Made by a program: the position numbers and the translations under genes
The notes under the pieces: model-generated
Databases searched by the model: none
Seen by the model: only the letters and a program-made list of their open reading frames with translations
Told to the model about the DNA's origin: nothing
Assembly: GCA_010645155.1 (NCBI GenBank)
Contig: JAAGOF010000288.1
Location: forward strand, 439,328-503,327
Source: Tigriopus japonicus
Taxonomy: Eukaryota > Arthropoda > Copepoda > Harpacticoida > Harpacticidae
Length of the DNA stretch: 64,000 nt
Direction: 5' to 3'
In this document: positions 1 through 64,000 of the stretch, in pieces
How positions within the stretch are numbered: the first letter of the stretch is position 1
Layout of the letters: every line of letters begins with the position of its first letter

Positions 1-400
1 CAACGTCACCAGGGCTGCCATACAATTGTTCAACAAAAAAAGTCATTTTACATAACAATGCAATAATGTGCACAAGGAAAACGCTCTAATGGCTTCAATT
101 GACGTTCTAAATATTCACCAATCAATTTTGTATCTAGTTAGAATTAGTTTTCCTAAAATGTAAGAAAGTCAAGGCAAATCAGCGACGAGATTCTTCAAGA
201 GCTGACATTACCGAGTCAATTCACAGCAGCACTGGGCTTGAACGCGCATCGAGGTTTAAGGAGAACGAGAAGGTTATCTTCCGGCACTCATGTTTTTGGC
301 CCGTCTTGACCTTCAAAGGCTAAAAAGGTCAAACATTATGCTTTCAAAGGTAAGCTGAGATCAAGAGCGTCAATTTGATAGTAAATAGTACATAGGTAAA

Positions 401-500
401 GTTGCCTCAAACAGGTCGAACCCAAGAACCACAGTACAATGGAACCGACGTCTTGGGACCAAAATGGCACATGCGCGTACTCTTTTATTATAGCGCTCTA
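401..500 (-). mobile_element. End fragment of a hAT-type MITE inserted in a LINE
   Basis: Read on the minus strand, the sequence from 500 downwards starts TAGAGCGCTATAATAAAAGA, the same terminal sequence as the complete element at 10268-10732 and the fragment at 45061. It interrupts the LINE reading frame exactly at 500/501. The opposite end and the target duplication are not visible, so the lower boundary is approximate. Confidence 0.45.
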
Positions 501-1570
501 GTTTTGGCCTTGGCCTGGCTTTGGCTTTAACCTCTCTGTTTGGGGCATGCTTGTCCAGTACTTTGAGGATGTTTGTAGATAGTGTCTTGGCCTTTTGATC
601 AGTTGATTGTGCTTGGAAATTTTTCCATAATTTGAAATACTGAAGGTCCTCGTGGAAATGCTGAATGTTGATTTTCTTGAGGTTTCTTCTGAGTATTTTT
701 GTAGGGGGTCTTTGATGTAGTTCCATCGGTAGGTCAATGATTACTGCATCATGATCACTGCAGGAGGGATATTTTCTGATGGATGGTTGATATTTTCCCT
801 TGTATGCAGCCCAGTCAAGGCTTGAGGTTCTGACTTCTCCTTGGACAACCCTTCTCCAGGTTGGTCCAGGGGAGAGTATTTTGAATCCTGCCTCCTGTAT
901 CCTCCTTTTTTGTAGATTGTGCCATTGTCTTGTGTGCATAGTTGGAGCTCTTCTGAAGATCTAGATTCCAGTCCCCGACTATTATGGTTGTTGAGGATTT
1001 GTCTGCTTCTATCTTCTCCATCAGGTCATTTATGTCCTCTTCTTGATTCATGTTCCACTCCCTGTAGAAGTTGCATGTCTTTATTGTCTTTCCATTTGGG
1101 AGTTCCAGTTTGATCCAGATTTGTTGACCTTTGTTTGAGATCTCTGAGACATAACTTCTGAAAGTGTTGAGTTTTACAAATGACATTACTCTCTTTTTCT
1201 CTCCTCTGCCCACAATTGTTGAGAAGCCTGGGAAGTGGAAAGGTCTCTGACTGTCGTAGTTATTTACATCAGTCTCTTGTAGATGCACAATGTTTGGTTG
1301 GATGTTGTTGATAAGTGATTTCAGCTCCTCCTCCTTGTCAAACAAGCCCCTTCCTATATTCAGGGACAATATTTTGATTTGTTGCCTTGGAGGTTGCTGT
1401 TGGTGATCTCTTGGGGGCGGGTTGTTTAGAAAATGGCAGTTCTTGGTCCCATGGGCCAAGGTTGTTGCTGGCTTTGGCTCATTTTGATACTGGTTTGTAG
1501 AGCCTGATTGGACAGAAGGAGCTCCATTCTTTTCATGGCCTCTTCCATTTGACTCAGGCGCTTTTCCCAC
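501..1570 (-). pseudogene. LINE endonuclease domain, frameshifted
   Basis: The minus strand reads an AP-endonuclease-like domain: a start motif (KILSLNIGRGL), the catalytic-Glu motif region (IVHLQETDVN), a central VGDWNLDL motif, and, in another frame after about position 940, the terminal SDHDAVIIDLP motif. Motif order and spacing fit the N-terminal nicking endonuclease of LINE ORF2. The frame break lies near 925-945, just after LDLQKSSNYAHKTM. A Lys/Arg-rich linker follows, and the frame then ends at the MITE junction (500). No reverse transcriptase follows, so this copy is dead. Confidence 0.7.
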
Positions 1571-2340
1571 GTCGACGAGGCACCGCCCTCTAAAAAAGGC
1601 GCTCCTTTCTCACGGAAGTTTTTTCTCACTCCTTTCTTACGCGTGTGGAAATCGTCGAAGCGTTGGCTGTTGTTGTTGTTATTGCATCCAAAAGTGGTCC
1701 TGTTTTTCTGGCCGCCTCTAGATGGATTTGATCGCGATGATCCTCGGGCTTGATCTTTTGTCGAGTCTGCCTTGTTCTTTGGATTCCCCTCATGTCTCTG
1801 TTCAACATGGTAGAAATATCGACAGGCCTTGATTTGACAGGGATGCCCTTTCCTGGATCCGGGACAATGGACGACATGGACCCGTTCGCATGTTTGGCCT
1901 CGAGTACAACCATTCTCTAGGTTGCCATTCAAGAGAAACGGTTGACAGATGGGCCTATGCTTGTATAAGCACTCGCTGCCTCTCATACACCTCCCCTGCC
2001 TGTAAAATTTGCAGTCAGGCAGAGATTTGTTGTTCTTCTTGGGTTTTATTTTTGTTTTGGTTGTGGAGCAGCTGCTGGAGCGACTGCTGGAGCCGCTGCT
2101 CGATGACGAGCTGGACCTGGTCCGGGAGCGGGTCTTCTTCTTCTTCTTTTTTCCGCTCTCAAGCTCACTCTCCTCCTCGCCATCACCATCATCGCCACCA
2201 CTACCCAATTTGGCGTGATCGCCCTCCGTGTTGGGTCCTCCCGTTTCTCCACCCTCCAAGGCTCCATCAGGGATGCTGCTTTTTGGAGGAATGTCAGACC
2301 CCTTTGGAAGATCTGCTAGGAATTGTTTGACCCCACTTAC
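1426..2340 (-). pseudogene. LINE ORF1-like protein with CCCH zinc finger
   Basis: About 300 codons are open on the minus strand. The N-terminal part is acidic and glycine-rich, followed by a Lys/Arg run and then a long Ser/Arg-rich tract. Next comes a CCCH finger of spacing C-x7-C-x5-C-x3-H (CKFYRQGRC...CLYKH). A second Cys/His cluster follows (CTRGQTCERVH, HCPGSRKGHPC), then an Asn/Ser-rich linker and a short coiled coil near the C-terminus. Zinc-finger ORF1 proteins bind element RNA in several LINE clades. There is no in-frame ATG at the upstream limit, so this is a 5'-truncated relic. The frame overlaps the endonuclease frame by about 145 bases, a usual LINE arrangement. Confidence 0.6.
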
Positions 2341-2721
2341 AGTTACAATTCAATAACGGCATACGATGTTACTGAAGATCATGTTTTCAGGTCACCACCT
2401 CATTTCCAGTCGTGCAAATCAAGTTGTTAATGTAAATAAGGCCGTAGGTTGCCATTGTTTTGTCATTAAATATTTTTGTGTTTTTTCTGCTTTTCAGTAG
2501 TGCACCCGGTATTTCTAGCTCCATACAGATAACGCTTTCAACTGGATAATTCTTTTTTAAATTCCCAAAAACTTTTGAGACCAGTTTTGAGGCGTGAATG
2601 CAATACCGCATTTGTATTTTAATTCTGTTAATTAAGTCAAGGCAAAAAACCGATCAGGGGTCACTTAAAACATACTTTAAGACAATTTTTGAACATTGTG
2701 TTCTAATTAATTCTCAAGTAG

Positions 2722-3139
2722 CAGACCTGTTCAATTATCTTATCTAGATACTTTTTTCGGGAAAGTATCTTAAAGTATCTTTAACTAGATACTTTTTTCG
2801 GAAAAGTATCTTAAAGTATCTTTATCTAGATACTTTTTTTCGAGAAAATATCTTAAAGTATCTTTATCTAGATAGTTTTTTCGGGAAAGTATCTTAAAGT
2901 ATCTTTATCTAGATACTTTTTTTTGGGAAAGTATCTTAAAGTATCTTTATCTAGATAGTTTTTTCGGGAAAGTATCTTAAAGTATCTTTATCTAGATACT
3001 TTTTTTTGGGAAAGTATCTTAAAGTATCTTTATCTAGATACTTTTTTCGAGAAACTATCTTAAACTATCTTTATCTAGATACTTTGCAGAAAATACTATC
3101 TTATCTAGATACTTTTTCAAAGTATCTTGAACAGGTCTA
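2722..3139. mobile_element. hAT-type MITE filled with a minisatellite
   Basis: The left end reads CAGACCTGTTCAA and the reverse complement of the right end reads TAGACCTGTTCAA, so the termini are inverted repeats. Flanking 8-mers are tcaagtag (2714-2721) and tcaattag (3140-3147), a 7/8 match. Terminal C/T-A-G plus an 8-bp duplication is the hAT signature. The interior is almost entirely a tandem array of a roughly 40-bp unit (described separately). There is no coding capacity. Confidence 0.7.
2740..3125. repeat. Minisatellite, unit about 40 bp, 8-9 copies
   Basis: The unit is roughly ATCTAGATACTTTTTTCGGG followed by AAAGTATCTTAAAGTATCTTT. It contains the palindrome ATCTAGAT and short inverted AAGTATCTT/AAGATACTT segments, so each copy can fold on itself. 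Copies differ by single substitutions and T-run length. Confidence 0.9.
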
Positions 3140-3399
3140 TCAATTAGTCATATGGGTGTATCTACCCCAAAAATTGCCGAAATCTAATCAGCTGTTCGTT
3201 TAAATTGATGTAACGACCGTCCTGTTTGGTTCTTCGAGAATGTTGAACAAAAAAACCGTTAAAAATTAATTTCCGAAATATTTTAGAGCAATATTGCTGT
3301 TAGCTGAAAACTGAAGAAGGATAATGGACCTGATTCAGGCCTAAAATAATCAACAAGATTGACCAAGTTCATCGAAATCCCTTCAACTTTGTCTGAGCC

Positions 3400-3595
3400 A
3401 CTAATTCCAGGATCACAAGAAGCTCAACCAAAATGGACAGTCATTCAAGAGTACAATACAGACGTCAGAAGCAATTTCTCTTCTGTACGAGTGACCAAAG
3501 ATTGGAACGCACTTCCACTATAAGTTCAAACTGCAAAAAATTCAAATAGGTTCAAGAAAAGGATTGGAAATCTGTTTGACTTCACCTAATCGATG
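3400..3595 (+). pseudogene. LINE ORF2 C-terminal remnant
   Basis: One plus-strand frame reads SSVRVTKDWNALPL, a stop, then NRFKKRIGNLFDFT and a stop. This is the typical C-terminal signature of LINE reverse transcriptase ORFs (R-V-x-x-x-W-N-x-L-P ... F-K-x-R-L/I-x). Only this tail survives, with an internal stop. The flanks 2346-2713 and 3148-3399 show nothing else I recognise. Confidence 0.5.
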
Positions 3596-6934: not shown

Positions 6935-9696
6935 TTAAAGCTCCTTCATTTCTCGCAGACGTCGGATGGCGGATCGAACGGAGGCGGCAGCGGTGGTTGT
7001 GTAGCTCCAAGCTCCTCCGGCCACGGTCACGCGACAGTTCTTCTGGTTGCAAAACCAGATACCCACGGCCTTACGTTTCATGGCATCCTAAAAATGAGAA
7101 GAATAAAGCCTCCGTCAGTCTCTAAGAAGTAGGTAGCAGTACCAGGACTCATTCATGTTTGATTAAATGGGGCATTCGTACGAGAGGTTAGGATTTTGAG
7201 ATATGTTCCCACAAAGGCCGGTGAGCACCAAAAGCCAAATGAGATTGTGTTAAACATGACTATCTTCATTTGGAAGGATAAAAAAGATACAAAACATGAA
7301 GGACAGTAAATTACTGAACTGTTATACTTATTGAAATGAGACCTCATGAACGAATAGTTGGTTTATAACATATAAAGTTATATTCTTCAACGATAGACGC
7401 AAGAAAAGCTTACAGTCAAAAGCGGGCTATTATAATAATTTGAGCCATAATAGATCACACCATCAAAACATTCAAAGAATATTTGACCTAACCACGGGTA
7501 GTTATTTCCAGATTTTTTTAATTTCAATGGCATTCCACTTTCAGTGGTACCACACCATTGGTTTAAGTCTTCGGAAGAAGAAAATGCAAAATATAAAATC
7601 TTCCCCCATGGAATATGACAGAAATTGTCATTTTAGTTATGACGTGTTTTGAATCTTTTTCCCCTTGATTAAAATCATGAGAAGGGTATCTCCTGAATGT
7701 AGGGCCTTACATTATTACCTTTCACTGTAACTGTACTGATGTTTGTAATTAACTGATCCTTGGCCAATTTCTTGACTTGAGTTTAATTTGATCTATGAGT
7801 ATCACTACCTAAACACAAGAAGGGACATGGATATTCAAGGCACAGCATGTTTGTTTAGTTTGTGAAAGTGACTTTTACATCCTGTATCTATTGGTGATTA
7901 ATTTGGATCAGTTTGGTACATCTGAGATGATGTTATTGTGGTAGATTGGTCATTTCCTCGTTGATCATGTGCTTATCATGTGTCATTGTGTGCAATCCTG
8001 AATATCATTCTGCAAACCCCTTTTTTCTTGCAAGAAATCCTCCACATCAAGATTGCAATCACCAAATGAACAATATGTGTTGGCCTTCCACTTTTTTTAG
8101 GCCAAGTATTTCATGCCAACAAAAATGTGCATGAAATAAAGTGCACTAATGACCAAGTGAAGAACATATAACAAAGGATTTTGAAGAATCTAAGTTATTG
8201 AAGCCTGAACAATGTGATCATTGATCAGTTCTTTTGCTGATTGTGTGCTTTAAAAGTGACCAAATCACAGGCCTGTGGACAAAATGTCACTTATACATCA
8301 AAGAGAGCACGAGCATCAAACTCATCTAATGTGCCATGTGTACAAACAATTTCCATGCATAAAAAATCTTCACAGTGCACTCAGTATCCAACACATCAAT
8401 GAAAATCATCTGAAAGGTTGTCCTAAAAGTTCTGTAACAAAACTATGTGAATATGAGTCATGGTGTTCAGTTATGATTTTGAGTTCATTGTTCAACATTT
8501 TCCATTCCAAGTCTTGTTTCTTGACCACCATGACTTTCCTATCTCCTTTTTTTGCCTTGCATTGTTTGCCATTGTGAATCCATTTCTGATGATAAATAAA
8601 CTGCCTTACTTTATAGTTGTTTAGTTTTTGTAATTTAACTCAGAAAGGCTTTCATTAGAATTATCAAAACAACAACTAAGCAAATTAATGCACTTGAAGC
8701 ACTATCCACAAGGGAAATTTTGCTCCTCTTCATCATTGTTATCATAGCAGATTGAAGCCTATATTTCTCAACTTTTCTTGATTGCAATAAACAAAGCCTT
8801 CTAAATCAATAAATTGTCTATGATGTGCAAAATTGAAATTAAGCTTTGCTCCATGTCAAGGACACATTGGGGCCCAAAAATGTGTTACAAAGGAGACACC
8901 CTTCTCATGATTGGATAAGGAGGAAAATGGATTCAAACCATGCCATAACTAAAAAGGCCATTTCTCTCATTTTCCATGGGGGAAGATTTTAATTTATGCA
9001 TTTCCTTCTTTCCACGGCTTATGCCAATGGTGTGGTACCACTGAAAATGGAATGCCATTGAAATTAAAAATTTCCTTAAATAACTACCCGTGCCTAACCC
9101 ACTATGTTTCAACGTTACTGCTAAAAGGTTTTAAAAAATCCGCCCTCCAAATAAATCCTTCCTAATTAATATTACTTCCAAAATCTTGCACTACATTATC
9201 CAACTTGTCAAGATTTTCCTGACTTTCTAAATACTGCAATTCTAATTGGGGTTCATTCCAGCTAAATATAACGAGTGAGTTTCCAAGTTTATCACTTAAG
9301 GGAGCTAATTCAACCTTCCCAAATTATATAGCCTGGACCTCGCATCACGATTTGTCTCACCTTGCCACAAAAGGAGCATGTGTACTTGGCGTGCTGCGAG
9401 ACCTCCATCTTCTTGACGGTCTTTCGCAGGGAAGCTCCATAACGGGTTCCGTACTTGCCCACGACTCCAACCTTCTTGGTACGCTTGGCCTGAAACGAGA
9501 TCAAATTTCTTTTCAGAGACTCGATTACAAACCCAAATTCGGGGTCTCTTGGGACAAGAAATCCGTGGATGAGATTGGATTTAGAAACTTAAAACACCCG
9601 TGAAGCACTTGAGACACGAAATGAGATCATGGGTTCAGGGATTCACGAGAAATTCGAGGATTTACAAGAGGATAGCAATGTTTAGGTTCTTACCAT
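6935..9696 (-). CDS. RpL37A: 60S ribosomal protein eL43 (RPL37A)
   Basis: Three coding exons on the minus strand. Exon 1 carries only the ATG (9696-9694), followed by gtaag. Exon 2 (9489-9361) encodes [20 protein letters not shown] through the first zinc pair CSFCGK. Exon 3 (7087-6935) starts [13 protein letters not shown] and ends REMKEL-stop. The product is 94 residues against the usual 92. It is a structural protein of the large ribosomal subunit with one C4 zinc finger. Here the second cysteine pair is CNQKNC (C-x4-C) instead of the usual C-x2-C, which accounts for the two extra residues. The stretch just 5' of the ATG, read on the minus strand, is a long pyrimidine tract, as expected of a 5'TOP mRNA. 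Intron 2 (7088-9360, about 2.3 kb) hosts a TIR transposon. Confidence 0.93.
7493..9092. mobile_element. Non-autonomous TIR element in eL43 intron 2
   Basis: Both ends begin CACGGGTAGTTATTT and share inverted repeats for roughly 170 bp (7493-7630 against 8930-9092). A 6-bp duplication cctaac flanks it (7487-7492 and 9093-9098). The first 45 or so bases match the ends of the autonomous-looking element at 60640-63533, including the internal segment AATTTCAATGGCATT. No long ORF survives; one short plus-strand frame (8275-8577) has a few Cys/His residues but no convincing finger. It is intronic, so it is removed from the mature mRNA. Confidence 0.75.
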
Positions 9697-45060: not shown

Positions 45061-45236
45061 TAGAGCTCTATATTAGAAAGAGTACAATCATATCCAACGC
45101 CATCTAGTTGATTTGGCTCGCAACTGCTCGCCGTTCCCAAAAGGGCGCACAAGAACCCTCTAAGCTGAACAAATTTTCCAAATTATGGGACCAAGATAGC
45201 AAATTTTAAGAAACTAAACGGCCTAAAACCTTAATG
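45061..45236. mobile_element. hAT-type MITE fragment (TAGAGC family)
   Basis: Starts TAGAGCTCTATATTAGAAAG and shares 'aacgccatctagttgatt' with the complete copy at 10268 (cacgccatctagtggatt). 'aaactaaacggcct' (45209-45224) matches the interior of that copy near 10592. The far end is missing where LINE sequence resumes. Confidence 0.6.
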
Positions 45237-45289
45237 AAGAATAGAATATGATATGATATATAGGAATAGAAATGATGAATAGAGAAATG

Positions 45290-47024
45290 GGCCTATAATT
45301 ACTAGGGAGTGACTTATCTCCGCCCTTAAAAATTGGAACGACATGAGCTACTTTTAGAGAGGAGGGAAACTTGCCCTGATCTAAGATGCAACGCATCAAG
45401 TAGGAGAAAACAGAGGCAAGAATCTGTGAACATTTCATCAGAAACTGAGATGTCACGCCATCAGGTCCAGGAGAACTCGAGAGCTTTAAGCTCGTGATGA
45501 CCTCAAAAGCATCTTGATCTGTGACTGCCAGATCCTCCAATCGATTATCTTGACTGTCAATGTCAGTCTCACCAACAACATTCCTGTCGTCATGGCCTGC
45601 TTTTCCTACCCTTTTTGGAATCGAAAATGCACTTGAGAACTGATCTCCAAGCATATTGGCCATAACCTCACTATCATTGACGGTTTTACCGCCGACCTCA
45701 AAAGGTCCTACACGATGCTTCATTTTTCTCTTTGTATTCGCAAACGAGAAAAACGCCTTTGGATTCGTCTTAACCTCCTGGATCACTCTACTTTCCTTCT
45801 CTAACTGATCGGAATCAATGAAGGTCCTAATCTTAGCTTGAACCACATCCAAATTGCTTTGGAGGCTGGCTACAACAAAAGGATTCAAAGTACGCCGAAG
45901 TCTATTCGTAAGTTGAAAACTCCTTGTGAACAACTTCTTTCTAACCTTTGGAATTCTAAACAACGGGCCATCTTTTGCCACCATTTCTGGGATACTGAGG
46001 GACAAACAAACCTCGTCAAAATGTGAGATCGGCCATAGAGGACTATGGATCGGCCTATTTATAGCTTCAGTATGGATATCAAGTCCAAGTCTCCTAATAT
46101 TTCAACAATAAGGGGTCAGTGTTCATCATTTGAACTTAAACTTGGCCACGCCCACCTTTTGAGACGGTTCAACTCTAGAGCTCATTGGTTTTTGAGTAAT
46201 GGTCGACCCTATCTCCTCAGAATGTTATGATCTGAAAGGCTACATGGCAACATGGACATACTGGATCAGATCAGGGTCATTGGAAAAAACTAAGTCTAAA
46301 GCACTCTCTGCTTTGGTTGCAGCACCAACGTGTTGAGAGAGATTACGAAAGGTCGCAAACTCTTCCAATTTATCGAAAGACAGCGATGCTGTTTTCGAAA
46401 TGGGAATGTACCCATCCGCACTAACCTCCCACTCAACAATGCTAGCCGGAAAATTGAAGTCGCCAACAACAAAGAGTCGAGAACAAACCTCTCGATCTAG
46501 CTCCTTTCGTGTAAATTCGAGTGCCGAAAGATATGAGGAAGAACTACAAGAAGGTGGCCGATACATTGTTACTATTGTAAGATCAAGAGCCTTGACGTGG
46601 CAAATCAAAACTTCTACTTCTCCATTCGACTTATGAACATGACTAAAATGTAAGTCTTTCCTGACTATAGACATACGCCTCCAAGTAGGAAAATGGGATT
46701 GTCAGGCCGTGCTCCATCACAACGAACTAGCCCAAAACCAGCCATTGCTACTTCTTCTTCTAAAACTCCTGGGCGAAGCCAAGTCTCTGTGATAGAAATG
46801 AAGGAGACGTCTCTATCAATGGCTAGCTCCTCCAGTACTCTGACTTTTTTCAGGAAATCAAGACAATGCAGGTTCAAATAGAGCCCTTTTATGAGCTTAA
46901 GGTCTTCTGATGGACCAAGTCTATCAGTTCTTGGACCTTCCTGTCTAACCTTAAAAAAATCCTGCTTACTAACAAAGTTTTGCCCTTCAGGAAAGATTTG
47001 TTGGGGAGGGGAGGGGGTGGTCAC
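45290..47024 (-). pseudogene. LINE ORF2: endonuclease and start of reverse transcriptase
   Basis: Three minus-strand frames in series. 47024-46665 begins the endonuclease (GLYLNLHCLDFLKKVRVLEE, SFISITETWL). 46674-46240 continues it (TIVTMYRPPS, LFVVGDFNFP, ALDLVFSNDP). 46005-45290 carries the first reverse-transcriptase motifs (SSPGPDGVTSQFLMKC, HVVPIFKGGDK, LPSNYRPISL). RT motifs from YRPISL onward, including the catalytic F/YxDD, are lost. The motifs resemble CR1/Jockey-type LINEs. The 5' flank (47030-47200) is extremely purine-rich on the plus strand and may be the remains of ORF1 or the 5' UTR. Confidence 0.75.
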
Positions 47025-60287: not shown

Positions 60288-60639
60288 TCTAGAGTTAATT
60301 GACACAAGTCTGACAATGGGCAAAAAGCCTAGGGAGCAACAAACCTGTTGCTTTTCCACGACACTTGAAATATATCTCAATCAGAAAAATGGCTAAGTAA
60401 CTTAAAATCAAATATGTGCTCCCCTTTTGACAGGAAGCTAACTTTTAGGGCGAAAATCAGGTTTGAGATAGTAAAAGTTAGAAAGTTGGCAAAGCATATC
60501 TGTCCACTTTCCAGAAGTTTCAATTCTGGTTCACGGACGTTTTTCACTCATCTTGTGAAACCACATTGCATAAATCCTGCAGGGCTAGCATGTTGGTAAG
60601 ACTAGCTCAAGCATCAAATGAGATTTGAAAGACACCCTT

Positions 60640-63533
60640 CACAGATGGTTATTTCCAGAAATTTATGATTTCAATGGCATTTGAATTTCTAAGCGACCAA
60701 TTCGTAGACGTAGCTTTTTTGAGCATATATATGTCAAAAATAAAATGTCTGCCCATCACTGCATTGGAAAAATGCAAATTATTTCAACTCATTTTTATGT
60801 ACTAAAATAAAACAATAGTCAATGCAAATCTGGTTTTGAAAATCAGGATTCAAAACTATACACTCATGAAAATATCGGAATAGAGGTGAGATACCAGCTA
60901 TGGATTTCCATGAAAAAAATCGCACAAAGCTGTGCTTAATTTGTGGATTTGGACTGAAGGTAATCTCCATACCACCATCCTTGATTGATTCCATTCAAAA
61001 CTTCTACATGGCCAAGTATGTTACTGAAGATATTCGGCTTCCAAAAGCATTGTGCCAAACCTGTTTAAGGAGAGTCTATTCCTTTAAGAAGAGAGATTTT
61101 TCTCGACCTTTACCAGAATTTTACGACTGGTCAGCTATGGCCACATTTAGAATTCCCAGAGGATCCACAACTTGCTGTTGTTCAGAAATTTGCAAACGAG
61201 TCAAGACTCGAGCGTACTATGGAAGTGATGGCCGTCGAAAAACAACAAAACGCACTGTTGGCAATCCAAGAGTTATTTCAAGTACTTCAATGTCATCATG
61301 CACTGGTACTCAAGGGAGATTGTGCGTTGACTGTTTGTCTCAGATCTACCCTGGTTGCATTCACCAATGTGGGAGAAGAGCAAGAAAGATCAATTTAGAA
61401 TCTTTGTTCACAAAATCCGAGTATAAGGACCAACTACTGCGGAAACATGAAGAGGTCCTGAAGAAACGAAGCTCAATTATTCAACATCCTCTTTCAAATG
61501 CAGACATGATCTCTTTGAAAAACGACATTGGGTTATCCAACAAGCAAACATTGAGAGTTGCCAGAACAATTCGGAGTAAGTTTGGGTCAATGGCTCTTGA
61601 GGTCGGACTTAAGACAAAATTGACTGAAACCAACTCTCAATTCAAAGAATTCTTCTCAGAGGCTAAAGTTTTCTTTCCTGACGACAAGAAACTTTGCCAT
61701 TTTGTTTGGTGTCATGATTTGAGAGGGTTCATTGATCATGTAATGGAAGTCAGAGTTTGTGGAGGTAATGAAGTATTAAGATTTAGTATTGATAAAGGTG
61801 GCACGACATTAAAGATCACGATGTCAATCATCAAACATGCATCAGAAGAACAAGATGGTGAAAGAAACAGTCATTCAAGCAATGGAGTGCTGAAGATGTT
61901 TTGTGTGGGATTGGGATATGAGGTGTCTGAAGGGTATCTGAACTGCAAGAAGATGCTTCGCAAAATTAATCTCAATTCTCTTGAATACAATTTCAAAATG
62001 GTGTGTGACCTCAAGATGATCAACATTCTTTGTGGCATGACCTCTCATGCAAGTAGTTTTCCATGTCCTTATTGCACATGGAGAGCAGGCACCAACCCCT
62101 CGGGAAATGAAATTGCAAGAACATTTTTGTTCAATGCTACCAAGAATAGTGAATGGATCCACTCTGGTCAAGAAAGAAAGACTCTAAAGGAATTTTTCAA
62201 TGTGCAGTTCCCTCCCCTATTCCACCACGGTTCAATCATTGAAGTTTTTCCGCCCCCTTCCCTTCATCTAACCCTTGGATTGGTGAATCGCCTTTTTGAT
62301 GGAATAGAAGCTTTAGCTTGTGACGTAGCACACGATTGGGCTACTAGTCTTTATCTGAGGAAGGAAAATTATCACGGTGGATGCTTTACAGGACGTGCAT
62401 GCACAAAGCTCCTGAGAAATATCGACAACCTTGATTCATTGGTCCAGAAACAACCAAATTCAGATAGATTGAACCACTTTGTCAATGCCTTTCGTGATCT
62501 GAAAGATGTTAATGATGGTTACCTTGGGCAAATGTTAGCCTGTGATTTACCTGCACGGACTGAGAAGTTCAAGCAGTCATACATGCTCACAGGACTTTCA
62601 ATAAGTAGTAAAGCACATGTCATGTTTGAACATGTGCTGCAATTCACAAAAATTACAGGTGAAAGTTTTCTCCGATTCAGTGAGCAAGCTCATGAAGCAA
62701 GCCATTATAGTTTTGAGAAAACATGGTTCAGATACAGTATCAAGAATACACATAATCCAAAATTTGGAGCAAACCTTCTCAGGGCAGTATTGGATTTCAA
62801 TGGATGTCATTTGTGATCAAAAATGGATGTGAATAAACTTATGTTGAACCTAAAACCAGCACTGAAATTTCATTGATTTCTACCTTAAGGTCCATGCCTG
62901 AAAATAAGATTGATGCATTCAAACGGTATATACTAACAACAAAAAGAACCAACATAAGACATAAGACAATTAAACATTTCATCAACAATGAAGGTAAAAA
63001 ATTACTATGAGAGGAAGCTAGAAACACACTACAACAAACTTAGATAAAAAGGTGCAGTCAGGTAAAAGGTAATCAGTTGCAACAGGATCATTGAAAGTTA
63101 TAAGTAAATTAAGGGACGCCATGAAATACAAGCGTTTTGGTTAGTGTCAAAAGTATTCTTCAATCAAGAGTGTATTTTGAGCATGTATTTTGAACGTCAA
63201 AATGTTGAGTGGGAGCAGAGAACATCAATTGCCAACTGTTGGTTACACTAAATGAAATAATTCAATTTGAGACTTTTAAGTCCCAAAAGTAAACTGGCAT
63301 TAGACATTTTTAAGAGGCTGAAGAAATGTTGTCTAAAAATATTTCTTCTACATTTCTCATCACACAATGACTGAAAACCAAGCCAAATTATAAATTTGCA
63401 ATAACTCCAAAATATCATGGCGCAGTAATTTCTTTTCGACATTTTTTGTTTCATTTCATTTCACCCTTTGATAAAAGACTTCGAAATTTCAAATGCCATT
63501 GAAATTAAAAAAAATCAGAAATAGCCACCCGTG
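60640..63533 (+). mobile_element. Complete TIR DNA transposon with a 638-aa ORF
   Basis: The left end is CACAGATGGTTATTTCCAGA and the inverted right end CACGGGTGGCTATTTCTGAT. Both continue with ATTTCAATGGCATTTGAA, an inverted repeat of about 50 bp. The adjacent 4-mer cctt is duplicated (60636-60639, 63534-63537). Total length 2,894 bp with a single intact ORF (60900-62816). A related non-autonomous element lies at 7493-9092. Termini starting CAC recall Transib/RAG-type ends, but target-duplication length does not fit cleanly, so no superfamily is assigned. Confidence 0.75.
60900..62816 (+). CDS. Putative DDE-type transposase of an uncharacterised family
   Basis: 638 residues, one exon, ATG start about 260 bases inside the left inverted repeat; an AATAAA follows at 62832. 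N-terminal zinc-binding-like cysteines: C12-x2-C15 with LCQTC near 55, then CVDCL...GCIHQC near residues 140-160. A central helical part (LSNADMISLKNDIGLSNKQT) leads to a probable RNase-H-like core. D298 sits in SIDKGGTTLKI. D370 sits in VCDLKMINILCG, followed by C389-x2-C392 (PCPYC). E595 sits in FSEQAHEASH, with Trp and Arg following. This order (DKGG...DLK...CPYC...SEQAxExxH) is one I recognise from abundant, unannotated repetitive proteins of crustaceans, insects and cnidarians. The function as transposase is inferred from its position between inverted repeats and the D-D-E layout; it is not proven. Confidence 0.7.
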   Translation: MDFHEKNRTKLCLICGFGLKVISIPPSLIDSIQNFYMAKYVTEDIRLPKALCQTCLRRVYSFKKRDFSRPLPEFYDWSAMATFRIPRGSTTCCCSEICKRVKTRAYYGSDGRRKTTKRTVGNPRVISSTSMSSCTGTQGRLCVDCLSQIYPGCIHQCGRRARKINLESLFTKSEYKDQLLRKHEEVLKKRSSIIQHPLSNADMISLKNDIGLSNKQTLRVARTIRSKFGSMALEVGLKTKLTETNSQFKEFFSEAKVFFPDDKKLCHFVWCHDLRGFIDHVMEVRVCGGNEVLRFSIDKGGTTLKITMSIIKHASEEQDGERNSHSSNGVLKMFCVGLGYEVSEGYLNCKKMLRKINLNSLEYNFKMVCDLKMINILCGMTSHASSFPCPYCTWRAGTNPSGNEIARTFLFNATKNSEWIHSGQERKTLKEFFNVQFPPLFHHGSIIEVFPPPSLHLTLGLVNRLFDGIEALACDVAHDWATSLYLRKENYHGGCFTGRACTKLLRNIDNLDSLVQKQPNSDRLNHFVNAFRDLKDVNDGYLGQMLACDLPARTEKFKQSYMLTGLSISSKAHVMFEHVLQFTKITGESFLRFSEQAHEASHYSFEKTWFRYSIKNTHNPKFGANLLRAVLDFNGCHL

Positions 63534-64000
63534 CCTTCTGAATGTAAGAATTGAGACTAAACTTTCCCGTTCCCGCTTGTCTCGAGAGTTCTGTAAACTA
63601 ATTGATTTTAAGACTAAAGGCTCCATTTGTTTATTAACCGCTCTCTTCAACCCAAGAAAACCACACTGGTTACATGTCTTTTGGGTAGGTTTAGCTCATC
63701 TTCCTCTGCCGTTCCCAAAAAGTAGTTCAGAAAGCTAACTAGATTGCTGAGATAACTAGTAGATTGCTATGAAGGCTCCCGTGCATTGAGTTCTATTAAT
63801 ACTAGAGGGAGTGTAAGTCTAAAAATGTGTCTTCGGTCGGCAACTGTTGAGCGGACAAAAGTGCGGGAACATTTGAAATGTGTGACCAGGCAAATGTCAG
63901 CCATGTAATTGATGAATCAAATGTGGAATTGTGTAATGTTTTTGGGTCATTTTTTGTTATTGACAGTGGTCACTTTCTTGAAATACATGAATAAAATAAA
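63534..64000. other. Intergenic right edge
   Basis: No gene seen. A 'cggtcggcaactg' at 63834-63846 resembles the hAT end found at 13590 and 19086, but no partner end is in the window. Confidence 0.35.

Follow-up and report, generated by a model that had tools for sequence, protein, structure and literature searches.

The present study concerns a DNA transposon, here called element A, in the genome of the copepod Tigriopus japonicus, together with an in-frame stop codon that most of its relatives in the same genome carry. The window, i.e. the whole stretch of 64,000 nucleotides that was analysed, is positions 439,328 to 503,327 of contig JAAGOF010000288.1 (C50:439328-503327 in our numbering of the assembly, which has 194.85 Mb in 158 contigs). 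Element A occupies positions 60640-63533 on the plus strand (2894 bp) and has CAC...GTG termini. Its left terminal inverted repeat (TIR; 60640-60688, plus strand) and right TIR (63485-63533, minus strand) are 49 nt long and 76% complementary, with 37 of 49 positions paired, whereas none of 300 dinucleotide-shuffled versions of the flanks exceeded 32. CCTT is present on either flank (60636-60639 and 63534-63537; strand not applicable). This target site duplication (TSD) is an addition to the initial annotation, which gave none. An alternative 5-bp repeat, CCTTC, is obtained only when the left end is shifted 1 base inward, and the ends of the related TIR family, in which 4 bp is the commonest length, speak for a duplication of 4 bp. 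Between the TIRs lies a single open reading frame (ORF) of 638 amino acids (60900-62816, plus strand), and the ORF list holds no other frame of at least 150 aa within the element. The initial annotation had described one 638-aa ORF between inverted repeats of about 50 bp beginning with CAC, and this description holds. A DNA search of the assembly showed that the coding part of element A is single-copy, the sole match being a decayed fragment (L058, C1:4599037-4599826) of 87-89% identity. Differences between the two by codon position are 13/166, 20/167 and 18/167; as there is no excess at third positions, the comparison is uninformative about selection at element A.

The motifs of the 638-aa protein follow one another in the order D298 (61791-61793), D370 (62007-62009), C389-x2-C392 (the C(2)C motif, 62064-62075), L455-H456 (the LH motif, 62262-62267), H573-x4-H578 (the H(4)H motif, 62616-62633) and E595/E599 (62682-62696), all on the plus strand. 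When only those rows of the family alignment that cover a residue are counted, the putative catalytic D298 is invariant in 12/12 rows and D370 in 20/20, as are C(2)C and LH, while H(4)H and each of the two glutamates are invariant in 14/14. In the structural model E599 lies on helix 598-610 with E595 immediately ahead of it, and the catalytic glutamate may be E599 rather than E595. The D298, D370, C-x2-C and E595 of the initial annotation therefore stand as placed and are invariant, but E595 is not the only glutamate candidate. Two Cys clusters had also been claimed in front of these motifs, and they are real: in the N-terminal Cys-rich region (60900-61370, plus strand; C12, C15, C52, C55, C94, C98, C142, C145, C153 and C157) each Cys of C12/C15/C52/C55 and of C94/C98/C142/C145 is retained in at least 4 of the 5 rows that cover it. 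A weak zf-AD-like match, with E 0.068, was given by the N-terminal Cys pairs (window 60900-61100) of one row out of 31. It should be noted here that a tight D-18-C..C...H4H...E pattern arose in 82 of 20000 protein shuffles and a looser version in 504, so the motifs are not used as proof.

The closest protein outside this genome in protein-database searches is LOC131892379 of T. californicus (399 aa, 44-48% identity); region and profile protein searches gave no other outside relative, and no useful matches were found in viral contigs, prokaryote contigs or phages. The match to the LOC131892379 gene model ends at C369, shortly ahead of the site of the relatives' stop, and it is possible that this model was drawn so as to avoid an in-frame stop. 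The Pfam and PDB sequence searches gave neither a RAG1 nor a Transib match at E<=10. The AlphaFold2 (AF2) model of the transposase has a mean predicted local distance difference test score (pLDDT) of 71 and a predicted template modelling score of 0.59; an earlier model made from 2 sequences had a pLDDT of 31.8. Foldseek matched the AF2 model to RAG1 with an E value of 4e-10, and structural comparison gave Z scores of 21.1 for RAG1, 18.6 for BbRAGL, 14.7 for HzTransib and 9.5 for the hAT transposase Hermes, i.e. the predicted core fold is like that of RAG1, the enzyme by which our antibody genes are rearranged. The initial annotation had invited a comparison with Transib/RAG1 and had proposed superposing a model on RAG1/Transib and hAT cores, and the predicted fold bears it out.

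Element A is not isolated with respect to its ends. A TIR pattern allowing up to 3 mismatches had 142 matches in the genome as against 0 for the reversed control. Forty of the 142 match regions were fetched, and 29 of them have paired ends (up to 8 mismatches); with elements A and B, 31 elements were counted. L067, L068 and L070, which pair only at 9 mismatches, were left out. Element B (7493-9092, strand not applicable) is a non-autonomous element of 1600 bp with the same end type and no long ORF, which lies between direct repeats CCTAAC at 7487-7492 (strand not applicable) and 9093-9098. CAC/GTG termini are also found on element B, on the fetched TIR copies and on L081 and L082; the left ends of L080 and L061 are not intact. 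Exact junction repeats are 4 bp long in 21 of the 31 elements, 5 bp in 4 and 6 bp in one (element B), as against a 4-bp match in 4 of 930 pairs when left and right flanks were taken from different elements; 8-bp duplications were seen in none. Five elements are without an exact repeat: L039 and L049 appear to have a 5-bp repeat with a single mismatch, no repeat is seen at L055 and L056, and the end of L061 is shifted. Duplications of 5 or 6 bp, as against a family norm of 4, were seen at L042, L048, L050, L060 and window 7487-7492. The spread of 4-6 bp is unlikely to be due to chance, since a duplication of 5 bp does not follow from one of 4 bp, and the target spacing of this transposase seems flexible. 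Collection of genomic copies and comparison of their ends and duplications had been proposed in the initial annotation; the end type proved to be common and 4 bp the commonest duplication. L057 (2902 bp) was considered as a second autonomous element and rejected, since its ORFs are Tc1/mariner-like and lie near 31-bp inverted repeats. At L057:1683-2994 an element with identical 31-bp inverted repeats is nested inside a 1.6-kb non-autonomous copy of the family, and its ORFs presumably encode a Tc1/mariner-like transposase.

Element A is very probably a Chapaev-type DNA transposon that is autonomous and moves by cut-and-paste; this type belongs to the CMC/CMCT clade and is of the RAG1/Transib kind. 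The hallmarks of Chapaev in the available part of the source (PMC4079192) are TSDs of 3-4 bp, CAC/GTG ends and the motifs C(2)C, LH and H(4)H. Element A shares with Chapaev so described the CAC/GTG ends, C(2)C, and LH and H(4)H between the second D and the E; its family shares the 3-4 bp TSD, the Cys-rich N-terminus and the non-autonomous derivatives, and differs in having duplications of 5-6 bp as well. For mouse RAG1 the available excerpt lists D600, D708, C727/C730, H937/H942 and E962 (PMC4914335). The first C follows the second D at a distance of 19 residues in element A as it does in RAG1 (D708-C727). Element A is unlike Transib, ProtoRAG and RAG1 in that identity in the structural alignment is only about 12% and that it lacks a further ORF of at least 150 aa. 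The TSD of ProtoRAG is 5 bp whereas 4 bp is commonest here, an exact 5-bp repeat being found in only 4 of 31 elements; Transib also has a TSD of 5 bp. It is unlikely, though a chance of some size has to be granted, that element A belongs to another CMCT lineage, be it EnSpm/CACTA, Transib or an unnamed one. CMCT elements mostly have CA..TG ends and TSDs of 2-5 bp, and C(2)C and H(3-4)H are common to EnSpm, Mirage, Chapaev, Transib and RAG1, as far as the accessible text goes (PMC12730594); in addition some duplications here are 5 bp long, the CCTTC reading is possible at element A and the fold comparison does not separate CMCT lineages. However, Chapaev as described in the portions available agrees with the 4-bp majority, the CAC/GTG ends and the LH motif seen here. 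A hAT-type element is very improbable, as the RAG1 score is twice as high, over 397 residues, and the 8-bp duplications that are the hAT norm in the part of the source at hand (PMC12730594) are absent from all 31 elements. Element A, a transposon that looks intact, is a new member of a class known in print. The initial annotation had regarded the protein family as uncharacterised, and its reading is partly supported: the transposon was rightly recognised, but the class had already been described.

A different feature emerges from the relatives of element A within the genome. All of the 74 listed matches that, by our reading, span or bracket the codon just past C(2)C, element A excluded, make up 43 loci with 33 distinct 39-nt contexts. 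The homologous codon is TAG in 36 of them, TGA in 2, TGG in 4 and TAT in 1, so that an in-frame stop is carried by 38 of the 43 relatives at one homologous codon; element A has Asn399 there (62094-62096, plus strand) and no stop. In each of L080, L081 and L082 a single in-frame TAG comes shortly after C(2)C, and the frame then stays open for 244-246 codons, a stretch that includes H(4)H and the glutamates. None of the 20 long fragments (L083-L102) has a second stop in the 130-167 codons past the site; several of the 20 short loci are visibly decayed, e.g. L108, L111, L114 and L117. Lineages with as little as 36% identity have the stop at one and the same codon. Genome-wide reassignment of TAG was considered and rejected, as one locus (L086, L123) terminates its frame with TAG downstream of the internal TAG. 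In L092-L097 the homologous frame begins abruptly near VSGNL, which suggests that several relatives have an intron there that is absent from L080-L082 and element A.

It was asked how strongly the frame past the stop is maintained. The ratio of nonsynonymous to synonymous change (dN/dS) was computed for 20 rows (the 23 long loci without L098, L099 and L100) and 190 pairs, of which 12 had a usable dS. The same three loci were left out of the codon-variation and folding analysis, which was also made without the near-copies L083, L084, L085 and L102, and out of the tree, which was also made without L083-L085 and 11 of the 20 short loci. Past the stop, dN/dS in TAG-bearing pairs with dS of 0.6-1.2 is 0.12 (L090-L092), 0.16 (L080-L081), 0.12 (L080-L089), 0.18 (L084-L089) and 0.21 (L081-L089); ahead of it, the ratio is 0.06-0.12 where dS is finite. 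The near-identical pair L081-L084 has 0.29 past the stop, with few changes, the TGG pair L101-L102 has 0.63 and the TAG-TGG pair L086-L088 has 0.21. The proportion of nonsynonymous differences is lower than that of synonymous ones in 118 of 120 TAG-TAG pairs. Out of 2000 simulations of neutral change, the 244-codon frame of L080 past the stop survived without a stop in 76 when there were 0.1 changes per site, in 5 at 0.2 and in none at 0.44, where about 8 stops would be expected. As the frame past the stop is kept by selection, it is very probable that the stop is decoded with some frequency. One could suppose instead that the TAG copies are dead and that stop-free relatives such as element A spread, in trans, a nonsense mutation that had arisen in one master copy. 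Such relatives do exist (element A and the 4 TGG loci), non-autonomous elements of this end type are plentiful and at least 14 of the 74 matches have several stops; even so this is highly improbable, given the long open frames of L080-L082, the low dN/dS of the TAG pairs, the number of stops that neutral change would have brought in and the position of the stop at one codon in such distant lineages.

In the tree of 27 rows three changes account for the codon states: TAG is retained across deep forks, TGG appears twice, nested in TAG groups, and TGA characterises one clade. TAG is likely to be ancestral and the changes to TGG likely to be derived from it, although the tree has a long root and some weak forks in its interior. 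The stop-bearing copies are also mobile. CAC/GTG ends are flanked on both sides by CGTA at L081 and by CATA at L082. A second copy of L082 on C17, reported as 100% identical (query 1-3407), stops one base past the GTG terminus; the flank is not shared, as the 190 bases outside the element have a 100% match only on C8 and match elsewhere at 71-86%. L083 and L080 agree at 801 of 801 bases, and a 100% match to the L080 flank of 490 bases occurs only at its own place. This shows that TAG-bearing copies moved recently, which does not imply which protein moved them.

The stop may also be something other than a recoded codon, namely the boundary between two proteins or an alternative splice site. Two-protein transposons exist, and TAG is usable as a 3' splice site. 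However, the residues on either side of the stop run on unbroken from those of the TGG relatives, no common ATG was seen by eye where the second frame begins in the sequences compared, and C(2)C would be lost with an intron of normal length that ended at the TAG; a boundary of this kind is highly improbable.

The route of decoding is less clear than the decoding, and the chances that it is translational readthrough are about even. Among the 16 rows of the codon-variation analysis (one with TGA and two with TGG) the first two codons past the stop show no synonymous differences between rows with the same residue, and synonymous variation averages 0.34 in the 10 columns within 6 codons of the stop as against 0.58-0.59 beyond 15 codons. 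This reduction is not absolute in a wider set, L117 having AAC where the others have AAT. The base after the stop is A in 24 of 28 distinct contexts and G in 4, and never C. Readthrough in the gag-pol genes of retroelements is comparable in that an in-frame stop is kept, the downstream frame is used and the ratio of short to long product is set, according to the available part of the source (PMC10085805); unlike these cases the stop here lies within the catalytic domain of a DNA transposase, is mostly UAG-A and not UGA-C, and has no recognised motif.

The sense alternatives are mostly TGG, which fits insertion of Trp and makes adenosine-to-inosine (A-to-I) editing possible. Removal of the stop in the RNA by such editing, by which UAG becomes UIG and is read as UGG (Trp) and UGA becomes UGI, the same codon, is a tentative alternative to readthrough. 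All but one of the 43 states are TAG, TGA or TGG, which are joined by A/G steps at two editable positions, and both nested sense groups are TGG. UAG-to-UGG editing that restores a frame is on record for PUK1 of Fusarium, and UAG is a preferred triplet of metazoan ADARs too, in the accessible portion of the source (PMC4817773). PUK1 resembles the present case in that an in-frame UAG lies within an enzyme domain, in related species too, in the same extract (PMC4817773); it differs in being a fungal, ADAR-independent case in a host kinase, whereas the stop here is seen in DNA. Against editing it can be said that there is no local folding signal and no outstanding long-range duplex in L081 and L082, that transition bias alone favours TGG as the return codon and that one locus has TAT. 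Similarly tentative is a complete stop/Trp switch by which a RAG1-like transposase lineage would control itself: the conserved UAG/UGA inside the catalytic domain would be edited to Trp, and editing by the host would decide whether active transposase is made or a short protein that might act as a repressor.

A number of observations weigh against the reading of element A as an autonomous Chapaev-type transposon with relatives whose stop is decoded. With regard to the class, neither sequence nor profile search gave a significant Pfam family for the transposase, and no transposase match was obtained in PDB by sequence profile. Membership in Chapaev is judged by ends, motifs and fold, with named Chapaev proteins compared by published description only. 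The length of the duplication varies (5 bp in 4/31, 6 bp in 1/31, no exact repeat in 5/31). Element A is single-copy save for one decayed fragment, and we infer its own activity from sequence. With regard to the stop, its decoding, very probable as it is, is read from the sequences only. Local RNA folding around the stop is no better than in shuffles, and the long-range duplex at the stop is ordinary in L081 and L082 (ranks 14/41 and 11/41). No known readthrough motif was recognised, the contexts named in the available part of PMC10085805 included. Constraint past the stop is strong but weaker than ahead of it (0.12-0.21 as against 0.06-0.12). At least 14 of the 74 matches have more than one stop, and part of the set is decayed, including L089, which was used in dN/dS and has a further TAA in its match. 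The stop codon is replaced by TGG in 4 of 43 relatives and by TAT in 1, and the ends of L080 are not resolved, its left end not being intact.

From its ends, its duplication, the related non-autonomous TIR family and the predicted RAG1-like fold, the working of element A can be proposed. The Cys-rich N-terminus and the helical part ahead of residue 290 would bind the TIRs and pair the two ends. The RNase-H core, made up of D298, D370 and E595 or E599, with a Cys2-His2 zinc site formed by C389/C392/H573/H578, would cut at CAC/GTG and join the element to nicks in the target that are spaced by about 4 bp. Element A could make this enzyme from one uninterrupted frame. In the relatives, decoding of the stop at some rate would give a full-length enzyme together with a short product (412-416 aa in L080-L082) that is without H(4)H and E. 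In insertion sequences OrfA/OrfAB frameshifting limits transposition, and by analogy the stop could plausibly do the same here.

Elsewhere in the window, ORFs at 45223-45984 and 370-939 (minus strand) have no Pfam family above the cut-off; they look like pieces of non-LTR retrotransposons.

Element A supplies defined ends, a target duplication and a full-length frame for a RAG1-like transposase, and the predicted fold ties to RAG1 a family that is unseen by Pfam or PDB sequence search. The class of the element is already known, and the new aspect is the conserved stop of the lineage. No in-frame stop is mentioned in the portions of the Chapaev literature available, and no stop readthrough in a DNA transposase is found among the literature matches listed, which are mostly open literature seen in part and in which retroelement cases are present. 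If the reading is true, the conserved stop would be, as far as the searched literature shows, an undescribed mode of regulation of a DNA transposase.
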